A DNA stretch of 64,000 bases from Nitrospira sp. (GTDB lineage: Bacteria > Nitrospirota > Nitrospiria > Nitrospirales > Nitrospiraceae), in NCBI GenBank assembly GCA_030123625.1, contig CP126121.1:639001-703000 (forward strand), in the 5' to 3' direction. The translations under genes and the position numbers were made by a program. Of the stretch, positions 50,491-57,460 are shown one piece after another (the stretch's first letter is position 1; each line of letters starts with the position of its first letter). The notes under the pieces were generated by a model. That model worked only from the letters and a program-made list of their open reading frames with translations, did no database searches and was not told the origin of the DNA.

Positions 50491-51015
50491 TTACGGGACG
50501 GAAGAGGTCTCGGAGGCAGTGGGAGGTTCGGCTCGTTTCTCAAAGGCGAAGTGAATGATCAGGACGATCACTCCGACGGTGATCGCAGAATCCGCTACAT
50601 TGAACGCAGGCCAGTGATAATTTTCGACATAGACATCCAAAAAGTCGATCACTTCTCCGAACCGCAGCCGATCGACGAGGTTGCCGATTGCGCCGCCGAG
50701 AATTCCCGCAACACTGACCCGGCCCATCCAATCCTGTTCCGGCATCCGTAACAAAATCGTGCCCAGCAGCCCAAGGGCAAAGATCGACGTCACCCCAAAG
50801 AAGACCATCCGAAACGCGTTGCTGCTCCCGGCCAAGAGGCCGAATGCCGCCCCGGGATTTCGGATATACGTCAGGCTGAAGAGGTTAGGGATGACGGAGA
50901 TCGATTCATGGAGCCGCATGGTTTGCATGATCTGCTGTTTGGTCAGCTGATCAAGAAAAATGATGCCGCCGGTCACCGACGCGAGCGCCAGATTGCGAAG
51001 GCCTGACGCACTCAA
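50491..51015 (-). CDS. lspA: Lipoprotein signal peptidase
   Basis: The 174-residue inner-membrane aspartyl protease cleaves prolipoproteins. Motifs are [33 protein letters not shown] and [11 protein letters not shown], with catalytic Asp in GNLVDR and NVADS. The start is placed at TTG 51013-51015, because GGAGG stands seven bases before it and the TTG shares bases with the ileS stop (TTGA), giving coupled translation. An ATG 18 bases upstream has no ribosome-binding site. Confidence 0.93.
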
Positions 51016-53825
51016 CGGATCGCCTCCACGCATCGATCGCACAGTGTTGGGTGAGCGGCATCCTTGCCGACCGCTTCGCGATAGTTCCAGCAACGTTCGC
51101 ACTTACGATGCGTCGACTTGGTCACCGAGACGGTGAAATCGGTTGTCGCATCGGGCCGTTGTTCGACGGTTACCTGCGATACAATAAATAACGCGCCCAA
51201 GTCCGCACGTGCGACGTTCAGCCATTGACCGGTCGGCACATCGGTTGTGAGATGAACATGGGCTTCGAGCGAGGAGCCGATGACTTTCTCACGGCGCCGC
51301 TCCTCCAGAACGCCTTGCACCTGCGTACGATATTTCAGCAGCCGCTCCCATCGCTCGGCCAGCTTCGCATCGGCCCAAGCCGGATCGGGATCGGGAAACG
51401 CGGCGAGATGCACGCTCGCCGTTCCCGCCCCTCCCGGTACCTGCACGGCCAACGTCCTCCAAATTTCATCCGCCGTAAAACTCAACACCGGCGCCATGAG
51501 TTTTGCCATAGCCACAACGATGTCGTACAGGACGGTCTGAGAGCTGCGACGCTCCTGTGCGTCCTGGCGGAACGTATAAAGCCGGTCTTTCAGAATGTCG
51601 AGATAGACGGCGCTCAAATCGACGGAGCAGAAGTTGTTCAATGCGTGAAAGATCGTGTGAAACTCAAAGTCTTCATAGGCTCGCCGCACTTTCGTGATCA
51701 GTTCCCCGAGACGCAACAACGCCCATCGATCCAGGTCCGGCAGTTTTCCATGGGGGACACGATGCGTTGCCGGATTGAAATCGTACAGATTGCTCAGCAA
51801 GAAGCGGGACGTATTGCGGATCTTCCGATAGGCTTCGATCAGATGATTCAGGATTTCCTGTGAGATGCGGAGATCTTCACGATAGTCTTGGGCCGCCACC
51901 CAAAGCCGGAGGATTTCCGCACCGGACTGTTTGATGACGTCCTGTGGCGCGACCACATTCCCGGCCGACTTGGACATCTTTTTACCCTGCCCGTCCACGA
52001 CAAAGCCATGGGTCAATACCGCCTGATAGGGTGCCCGATGATCGGTCGTGACCCCGGCCAGTAAGGCGCTATGGAACCAACCGCGGTGTTGGTCGGAGCC
52101 TTCAAGATACAAGTCAGCCGGCCACCACTTCCTCGGTTTCAGCACAGCTGCGTAACTGACGCCAGATTCAAACCATACATCGAGAATGTCATGTTCTTTT
52201 TCAAACTGGGTTCCTCCGCACTTTCGACATGTCGTTCCAGCAGGGAGCAAATCAAGCGCGGACCGTTCAAACCAGACGTCGGCCCCTTTGGATTCCATCA
52301 ATGCTGCGACATGTTCGATCACGACAGGGTCGGCAAGGACATCATGACAGGTCTTACAAGTGAACCCAGGAATCGGCACCCCCCATACCCGCTGGCGCGA
52401 TAGGCACCAGTCCGGCCGGTTTTCGATCATGCCGAAAATCCGATCACGACCATAGCTTGGAATCCATCGAACCTGTTCAATCTCCGCTAGGGCCTCCCGC
52501 CGCAAATCATTTATCTCCATGGACACAAACCACTGTTCAGTCGCACGAAAGATCACCGGGCTCTTGCACCGCCAACAGTGAGGATATGCATGGCTCAGCG
52601 AACCATGTCCGAGCAAGCGCCCATTCGCCTGCAGATAGTCGACGATTTTTGGATTGGCCTTCAAGACATGTTGGCCGGCGAACTCCTTCACGACCGACGT
52701 GAACCGTCCAGCGTTGTCGACCGGAGCCAGGATTTCGAGACGCTCGCCGGGTGAAGCCTTGGCGTTGTACTCGAGTACGAGGAGATAGTCCTCCATACCG
52801 TGTCCTGGCGCAATGTGGACACAGCCGGTTCCTTGCTCGAGAGTCACAAAGTCACCGAGCAGAATCGGTGACAGGCCGGTAGACAACGGACGTTGCGTCT
52901 CCAACCCCTCGAAGCCCTCCCCGCCTTTCCTCACTCCCAACACCCGATAGTCTTCGAACTGGCAAGCTTTGGCCACGCTCTCGATCAACTTCTCGGCCAT
53001 AACTAAAATTTCATCGCCCACCTGCAAGAATGCATAGTTGATGTCGCGATGAAGGCAGACCGCTTGATTGGCTGGCAGTGTCCAGGGCGTCGTTGTCCAG
53101 ATAACGATTGAGATCAGCTTCACCCCTTCCGGAAAGAAAATACCAGGGAAAGTCTTGCCGAGAGCGGATGGTGAGGTGACGACCGGGAACTTCACATAGA
53201 TCGATGGAGAGGTGTGGTCATCGTACTCGACCTCCGCTTCCGCCAGCGCCGTCTGGTCCTGCGTACACCAGAGCACCGGTTTCAGGCCTTTGTAGACTCC
53301 GCCACGCTCAACAAATTTCCCAAACTCACGAATAATCGTGGCTTCATAGCTTGGCGTCATGGTGAGGTAAGGACGCTCCCATTCTCCCAATACTCCGAGC
53401 CGTTTGAATTCATCTCGTTGAATATCGACGTACTTTTCGGCATAGGCACGGCAGAGTTTGCGGATCTCCGAGACAGCCAAGTTTTTTTTCTTCTCACCAA
53501 GCTCCTTCATCACTTGATGTTCGATCGGCAAACCGTGACAATCCCAACCCGGCACGTACGGCGCCTGAAAACCGGCCATGGTCTTAGACTTCACGATGAT
53601 ATCTTTCAAAATCTTGTTCAATGCGTGCCCGATGTGGATACGGCCGTTGGCATACGGAGGGCCGTCGTGGAGCACATACCGAGGCCGTCCATGCCCCATC
53701 GCCTGAATTTGCTCGTAGAGCTTCTGTTGCTCCCACCAGGCCAACATTTCAGGCTCGCGCTGCGGCAGATTGGCCTTCATCGGAAAATCGGTTTTCGGAA
53801 GATTGAGCGTTGATTTGTAATCCAT
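51012..53825 (-). CDS. ileS: Isoleucyl-tRNA synthetase
   Basis: The 937-residue class I synthetase starts at [21 protein letters not shown] appears in [15 protein letters not shown] and KMSKS in [16 protein letters not shown]. The editing domain includes [10 protein letters not shown]. The C-terminal zinc site is CERCWNY to CDRC, typical of the bacterial type. It is coupled to lspA, as in many bacteria. Confidence 0.97.
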
Positions 53826-53917
53826 AGGCAATGGGACCCGGACATTCACCGGATGATCATACGGGATCGATGGACTATACCGGAATGGCGGGCGAGGTAC
53901 CAGTCCTTACCCTTCTT

Positions 53918-54043
53918 GCGGGATCGTCAAAAACGTCTTCCAGCAAGGCCGCAGCGAGCGAAAGCCCGAGGCGTACAGGTTTGCGTACGTTGAGGGTTTG
54001 AGCGACGCGAGAACGCAGCTGGAGGCGTTTTTGACGATCCCGC
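53918..54043. repeat. 126-bp palindromic repeat element abutting nadA
   Basis: Perfect 18-bp terminal inverted repeats (53918-53935 with 54026-54043, GCGGGATCGTCAAAAACG) enclose an imperfect inner hairpin, with CGTAC/GTACG near its apex. The last base coincides with the first base, on the plus strand, of the nadA stop codon. It resembles a REP or MITE-type interspersed element without its own gene and may act as the nadA transcript end. Confidence 0.85.
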
Positions 54044-55146
54044 TAACTGATGGCCATCATACGGTCAAGCGCAACCTTCGCCCAGCGTTTATCGTCTTCC
54101 GGCACCACAATACGGTTGACGACCTGGCCTTCGGCTAGATTCTCCATCGCCCAGCAGAGGTGCGCCGCATCGATTCGGAACATGGTGGCACACTGACAGA
54201 CTGTAGATGATAGGAAGAACACTTTCTTGTCAGTGAGTTCGTGTTTCAGTCGATTGACGAGATTCAATTCCGTCCCAATCGCCCACGTCGTGCCGGCCGG
54301 CGCGGCGGTCACCGTGCGGATGATGAACTCGGTCGATCCGATGAGATCCGCCTTATTGACCACGTCTTCGTGACATTCCGGATGCACAATGACCTTGCCG
54401 TCCGAGTACTGCCTGCGGAAGTGATCCACATGGACCGGTTGAAACATCTGATGGACGCTGCAATGACCTTTCCATAAGATCAGTCTGGCTCGTTTGATGG
54501 CGTCCTTGGTATTCCCGCCGTTGGGTTGATAGGGATCCCACACGATCATCTGTTCGCGCGGAATGCCCATCTTGTTCGCCGTATTGCGGCCCAAATGCTC
54601 ATCAGGAAAGAAGAGAATTTTTTCCCGCCTGGCCCAGCACCATTCAATCACGGCTTTGGCATTGGAGGACGTGCAGGTGATTCCCCCATGCTCGCCACAA
54701 AACGCCTTGAGCACCGCCGCGGAGTTGACATAGACCGCCGGCATCACGGTATCTTCCACGGGAACCACACGCCCCAACGTTTCCCAGCACTGGTCAACCT
54801 GTTCAATCGCCGCCATATCGGCCATTGAACAACCCGCAGCCATGTCCGGCAAAATGACTGTTTGTTGAGAGCGGCTGAGGATATCCGCCGTCTCGGCCAT
54901 AAAGTGCACGCCACAAAAGACGATGTAAGGGCGTTCGGACCGTTCGGCGGCCAATTTCGCCAACAACAGCGAGTCGCCGCGAAAGTCGGCATGCTGGATG
55001 ACTTCGTCCCGCTGGTAATTATGGCCCAAGATCATCACCCGTTCACCAAGCGTGCTCTTCGCCGCTGTCGTTCGGCGATATAATTCTTCTGCCGATTGCG
55101 TCTGGTACTCGGTGATTGGCCTCGCGAATGTCGCAGTCGCCGTCAC
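54043..55146 (-). CDS. nadA: Quinolinate synthase
   Basis: The 367-residue enzyme condenses iminoaspartate with dihydroxyacetone phosphate to quinolinate for NAD synthesis. The 4Fe-4S cysteines are in IVFCGVHFM, VHPECHEDV and STVCQCATM, and MILGHNYQRDEV is the N-terminal signature. It stands alone, with nadB and nadC not in the window. Confidence 0.96.
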   Translation of the reverse strand: MTATATFARPITEYQTQSAEELYRRTTAAKSTLGERVMILGHNYQRDEVIQHADFRGDSLLLAKLAAERSERPYIVFCGVHFMAETADILSRSQQTVILPDMAAGCSMADMAAIEQVDQCWETLGRVVPVEDTVMPAVYVNSAAVLKAFCGEHGGITCTSSNAKAVIEWCWARREKILFFPDEHLGRNTANKMGIPREQMIVWDPYQPNGGNTKDAIKRARLILWKGHCSVHQMFQPVHVDHFRRQYSDGKVIVHPECHEDVVNKADLIGSTEFIIRTVTAAPAGTTWAIGTELNLVNRLKHELTDKKVFFLSSTVCQCATMFRIDAAHLCWAMENLAEGQVVNRIVVPEDDKRWAKVALDRMMAIS

Positions 55147-55315: not shown

Positions 55316-55415
55316 AGCTAGAGCTAGGGGGGCCTTGAGGCTGAGAGTCCGAACGATCGGACGACCCTCACAACCTGAACTGGGTAATACCAGCGTAGGG
55401 AAGCCGGACGACAGC
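55316..55415 (+). promoter_or_regulatory. TPP riboswitch (THI element)
   Basis: GGCTGAGAGTC and the conserved 3' block with CAACCTGAACTGGGTAATAC and CAGCGTAGGGAA match the thiamine pyrophosphate riboswitch. It lies about 115 bp before thiC and should switch off thiC-thi4 when TPP is abundant. Confidence 0.95.
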
Positions 55416-55426
55416 GGATCGTGTGA

Positions 55427-57460
<2,034 letters not shown>

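Follow-up and report, generated by a model that had tools for sequence, protein, structure and literature searches.

The described system closest to the element analyzed here is MITEPsy1/ISPsy2 of Pseudomonas syringae. In the sections of that report cited here, MITEPsy1 is a 100-nt MITE whose assignment to IS5 carries a question mark in the table; it inserts after CTAG or YTAA with a 4-nt duplication, its transposition in vivo was shown, and its end includes CTGAAAAAGCC, as in the family described below (PMC3189936). Also similar are ERIC, Correia and RUP, which the cited part of the source presents as dispersed repeats of ~107-155 bp with long stem loops, ERIC being co-transcribed with its neighbours and affecting mRNA stability (PMC2229807). 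QMITE2 of Coxiella resembles the element in being a long-palindrome MITE located mostly 3' of ORFs, and is described in the cited excerpts as a hot spot for IS1111 insertion (PMC5896051; PMC10969869).

The window, a 64,000-nt stretch of a Nitrospira sp. genome (CP126121.1, positions 639,001 to 703,000), contains a comparable palindrome that takes up the interval from the nadA stop to the start region of ileS, both genes being on the minus strand. A sequence-only reading of this DNA had reported a palindrome with perfect 18-bp ends at 53918-54043, and direct reading verified it: GCGGGATCGTCAAAAACG occupies 53918-53935 and its exact reverse complement 54026-54043. The DNA folding energy of the palindrome was -40.2 kcal/mol, whereas shuffled sequences averaged -23.3 (z -6.4, 0 of 200 shuffles reaching this value), and RNA folding gave z values of -7.6 and -9.4, one per strand. 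The reported one-base overlap with nadA was also seen, base 54043 being the G of its stop TAG; a transposon reading assigns this base to the duplicated target, TTAG, and makes the element itself one base shorter at either end (Table 1). From nadA outward the window reads CAGTTAG, then CGGG, and at the far side CCCGCAAGAAGGGTAAGGACTGG, where relatives have the empty sites given in the table. Judged by this comparison, the nadA copy is a short form that has lost its far end except for ~10 nt and TAAG; the degraded right end and its TAAG count against the IS5 reading proposed below. The Rfam model search gave no match to the element, its hits being a nearby TPP riboswitch and one chance-level match under the gathering score. 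The riboswitch lies at 55316-55418, ahead of an ORF at 55490-57460.

Table 1. Features at the nadA-ileS junction, in window coordinates
Feature	Position	Strand	Remarks	Basis
Palindromic element, short form, 124 bp	53919..54042	-	End A (CGGGATCGTC..) at 54042 adjoining nadA; end B at 53919	Sequence, BLAST family, aligned orthologous copies
Terminal inverted repeat, end A	54026..54042	-		Aligned with family end CAGGMTGYTGAAAAAG
Terminal inverted repeat, end B	53919..53935	-	Inner partner of end A in long copies	
Target copy TTAG (YTAR)	54043..54046	-	Includes nadA stop TAG	Sequence; empty sites CAGTTAGGGCTGG or CAGTTAAGGCTGG in relatives
Far right end remnant	53906..53918	-	~10 nt, then TAAG as degraded second target copy	Filled CCCGCAAGAAGGGTAAGGACTGG vs empty TTAGGGCTGG
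nadA	54043..55146	-	Ends at element	ORF; 79 related loci
ileS ORF	51012..53849	-	Downstream, same direction	ORF call

A BLAST search of the genome, proposed with that earlier reading, found the nadA copy to be one of a family rather than single-copy: it matched 41 places in 4.69 Mb. The earlier description of a gene-less, mobile-looking palindrome with an internal hairpin thus extends to a multi-copy, MITE-like family, which is old, since the other copies matched by BLAST are 72-91% identical to the nadA copy. The end pattern CAGGNTGNTNAAAAAG occurred 91 times in the genome (52 forward and 39 reverse; 0 for the reversed-letter control), and by pairing ends, 64 elements could be defined, which measure 120-444 bp and have no transposase gene. 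Longer copies were modular, with extra hairpin units placed within common outer arms. One recurrent double-hairpin unit was present in 24 distinct versions (a manual count), which had several stem sequences and conserved loop motifs; the first stem was paired at 6 of 6 positions in 22 versions and at 5 of 6 in the other 2. When copies were oriented on inner motifs, by which ends A and B were assigned, a stop triplet stood ahead of end A in 39 of the 64 copies and ahead of end B in 3. Also, a third end copy was found past end B in 17 of 64 (score at least 12 of 15; 0.3 expected from shuffles). These two observations give a full element that reads YTAR-CAGG...palindrome...CCTG-tail-CAKCCTG-YTAR. 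Two further copies were enlarged by an inserted IS110-family element (PF01548, PF02371). These insertions lie within a hairpin module of the two copies (C1:3975855-3977287 and C1:4672790-4674201, loci L215 and L225) and resemble IS1111 in QMITE2 of Coxiella. Besides, a divergent copy (C1:2737708; 1599-2076 of locus L201) stops 5 bp ahead of a tmRNA gene.

The element ends CAGGMTGYTGAAAAAG often adjoin YTAR, the motif duplicated by IS5 according to the cited text (PMC10359306). YTAR formed the left flank of 31 of 64 copies, its background frequency being 0.2%. The cleanest duplication was found at C1:4528286, where CTAA-CAGG...CCTG-CTAA lies between two convergent genes with an exact 4-bp repeat. 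The element was absent from all 17 other loci listed for this gene; 11 of these (L257-L267) have a single YTAR in which the two convergent stops overlap, and both stops are regenerated once the element is inserted. Against the IS5 reading, only 1 of the 15 elements with a readable third end had an exact 4-bp duplication, and 9 matched at three or more of the four positions (permutation expectation 5.0, p 0.006), so that most duplications have decayed. A copy at the end of a 437-aa gene (C1:2755784), whose filled and empty versions differ on the right side by other than a clean excision, was excluded from this evidence.

Further analysis of the ends suggested a likely mover. Another genome of the phylum has a 37-nt minimal element (L340) which is essentially two ends back to back. 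Used as a query against plasmids, this bare end pair matched the ends of IS5-family insertion sequences, and in a phage collection it gave weak partial matches; the palindrome itself had no match among plasmids. Pattern searches of viral contigs gave 1 and 20 loci (including L316). In an IS5 element of Bradyrhizobium ottawaense both ends are CAGGCTGCTGAAAAAG and CTAA is duplicated, the identical 16-bp end thus being present on a plasmid of another phylum; copies in Burkholderia glumae and Caballeronia are similar, with duplications TTAG and TTAA. The Bradyrhizobium-type transposase belongs to NCBIfam IS5_4 (E 2e-82; Pfam DUF772 and DDE_Tnp_1), and 47 of 76 genomes of the genus had a match to it. 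The window's genome has no intact gene of the IS5_4 type, only fragments (best E 9e-10), another point against the IS5 reading. Of 30 IS5 loci examined in the genus, 18 could be delimited (1.2-1.4 kb); the others (L372, L384, L385, L388, L390 and L394-L400) were excluded because their ends were absent, truncated or low in score. Exact 4-bp duplications, mostly CTAG, were present in 13. Their ends, such as CAGGCTGCGGAAAAAC, CAGTCTGCTGAAAAAC, CAGGCTGTTGAAAAAAG and CAGGCTGTTGACAAAC, are mostly 1-3 positions off those of the element, which, together with the location of the exact 16-mer on a plasmid of another phylum, counts against the IS5 reading. Element tails resemble two of the IS subtypes, TTTGTCAACATCCTG followed by CTAG and TTTTTCCGCAGCCTG followed by CTA.

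The family thus has the features of an IS5-derived MITE: terminal inverted repeats in common with autonomous IS5 elements, a 4-bp YTAR duplication, and a short body free of transposase. Because of the like ends, the YTAR duplications and the likeness of tails to insertion sequences of the genus, we consider the element to be probably a non-autonomous MITE from the IS5 subgroup of the IS5 family (probability about 0.83), which would be mobilized in trans. Of the two possibilities raised earlier, a REP or a MITE family, the second is favored by the long terminal repeats, the YTAR flanks and the IS5-like ends. The expectation that some element encodes the mobilizing enzyme was borne out in so far as autonomous elements with like ends encode a probable one. 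It is, however, most likely an IS5-family DDE transposase, probably acting in trans, and not TnpA(REP). Such a transposase would bind the ends RCAGGMTGYTGAAAAAG in trans, cut out or copy the element and insert it in YTAR with a 4-bp duplication. Insertion in the stop of one gene, or in a stop common to convergent genes, would duplicate the stop and leave the proteins unchanged, and copies directly at stop codons could thereby survive. The RNA would then carry a long hairpin behind the gene, which might plausibly influence where transcripts end or how stable the mRNA is.

This reading offers a simple reason for the position of the copies at gene ends. YTAR contains TAA or TAG and reads as a stop on both strands, and a protein remains intact after insertion at the gene end because duplication of YTAR regenerates the stop. 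An in-frame stop was located exactly at end A in 22 of 64 elements (20 under an earlier, stricter gene rule), at the far end in 11, and at either in 29, the far-end rule being lenient. For comparison, of 65 window YTAR sites that were intergenic or in stops, 14 (22%) were in stops, a rough expectation based on simple ORF calls. The proportion of copies that adjoin an in-frame stop, at least 29 of 64, is thus about double the approximate chance value; among autonomous IS copies it is 4 of 18, close to expectation. Since YTAR is itself a stop and the autonomous copies follow expectation, the target motif explains the siting in kind. The twofold excess of short elements may reflect counter-selection at other sites, a selective benefit of having a hairpin at the gene end, or errors in gene calls.

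In a different explanation the palindrome is a selected RNA element, either a bidirectional terminator or an mRNA-stability hairpin behind genes, and its mobile origin is secondary. In 31 distinct nadA copies, 20 of 33 tested base pairs had changed on both sides in a compensatory manner, and the covariation score was 0.280 against 0.132 for shuffles and at most 0.076 for slid versions, with none of 500 shuffles reaching it. The alignment comprised the window and 30 of 34 candidate loci, which with the exception of L089 held no inserted modules; L089, L106, L149 (a duplicate) and L162 were left out. These data show that complementarity of the arms and the inner stems is maintained at nadA. In addition, A tracts and T tracts border the GC-rich arms on both strands, and gene context is shifted toward convergent pairs (23 convergent, 33 tandem and 6 divergent among 64 elements, 2 not assigned, versus 10, 25 and 11 among 46 window gaps). 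Complementarity could, however, persist without selection if template switching corrected one arm against the other or if subfamilies inserted repeatedly, and independent insertions may inflate the counts. A terminator scan was also negative, though its loop limit excludes a structure of this kind. Distribution at nadA argues in the same direction. Among 47 loci, the site was filled in 24, empty in 14 and in another state in 9. On a nadA tree of the window and 46 of the 79 related loci (length-matched only), at least 12 changes were needed for the three states, and gain or loss of the filled state was forced at least 10 times by well-supported branches. The closest relative of the window has an empty site. 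Because presence is patchy and this relative is empty, the earlier suggestion that the element may have been fixed as a transcript end was not supported; the element may at most have a local effect there. Selection for an RNA function is considered possible but less than probable as the primary explanation. Several other Nitrospira have unrelated palindromes (e.g. TTTTGAGTTATAAGTTGTGAG..) directly after the nadA stop (L097, L113, L115, L118, L121, L123 and L150); of these, L097 comes from a record named Nitrosospira, yet its nadA falls within Nitrospira, and the assembly is probably mislabelled.

Other mobile systems account for the data less well than an IS5-derived MITE. REP and REPIN elements are defined by a linked Y1 (TnpA-REP) transposase, and a palindrome moved in this way would agree with the strong hairpins and with four Y1_Tnp genes in the genome. 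The ends, however, adjoin YTAR, a second terminal repeat is present in long copies, the same kind of ends occurs on autonomous DDE insertion sequences, and the ORFs at the two Y1 loci that were read (L061 and L062, of four) showed no link to the element. The search for a transposase with the same ends, also proposed earlier, succeeded for IS5-family elements of the genus and of plasmids and failed for these two Y1 loci; a REP origin is highly improbable. REP size was likewise a poor fit, the element being ~124 bp with long terminal repeats and a REP a 20-40 bp palindromic repeat in the cited text (PMC3733652). At L061, ORF translations contain a VKGSGLVSC-like stretch on both sides of the Y1 gene, suggesting that it has a different flanking repeat of its own. 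A RUP-like MITE of the Tc1/mariner (IS630) group, which duplicates TA, must be considered since every YTAR contains TA and many genomes (50 of 76) have IS630 transposases. However, none of 30 PF13358 (IS630) loci checked carries the element ends, and the duplication measures 4 bp in both the IS5 copies and the family's own clean copy, which makes this origin very unlikely. Recombination sites of the attC kind are ~120 bp long, keep structure over sequence and are positioned behind stop codons. The element shares this length, retains its structure as sequence drifts and lies directly after stop codons, but its terminal inverted repeats, the duplication of YTAR and the existence of DDE insertion sequences that match it are at odds with a dispersed integron, the least probable of the explanations considered.

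The ends of the proposed MITE are widespread. The pattern TARCAGGNTGNTGAAAAAG was found in 67 of 79 genomes of the genus and 168 of 395 of the phylum, with 0 for the reversed control throughout. Loci examined in four high-copy genomes had common ends and differing palindromic cargos: that of G411 was the same as in the window, G247, G143 and most loci of G414 had other hairpins, and L340 was the bare end pair. At loci L320-L345 of G247 and G143, the YTAR-flanked common ends surround TGTCATTGCGAG-type and GTCATTCTGAGGAGC-type palindromes. It is conceivable, though we regard it as doubtful, that IS5-type ends are a general shell for palindromes which are captured or swapped by a general mechanism, and that transposition or survival needs a hairpin cargo; such a cargo might serve, for example, as a strand-folded intermediate or as a tolerated hairpin at gene ends. 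No record of the end sequences or of the family was found in the open-access literature, where texts containing one end string were unrelated by title. A widespread and apparently unnamed palindrome family of Nitrospirota can now be tied to a probable enzyme, and nadA-ileS and C1:4528286 provide natural filled and empty pairs for studying the effect of a gene-end hairpin on transcripts.

Compared with known systems, ERIC, Correia and RUP differ from this family in having TA termini and other end sequences, and RUP is linked to IS630 (PMC2229807, cited part). QMITE2 has another sequence, and the cited excerpts describe no IS5 link (PMC5896051; PMC10969869). MITEPsy1, although closest, is low in copy number and reported in genes and other transposons, and the cited sections describe neither modular palindromic cargo nor siting at stop codons (PMC3189936). 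An IS5-family MITE as such is therefore known, whereas modular, exchangeable palindromic cargo within common IS5 ends, together with stop-codon siting, appears to be new.
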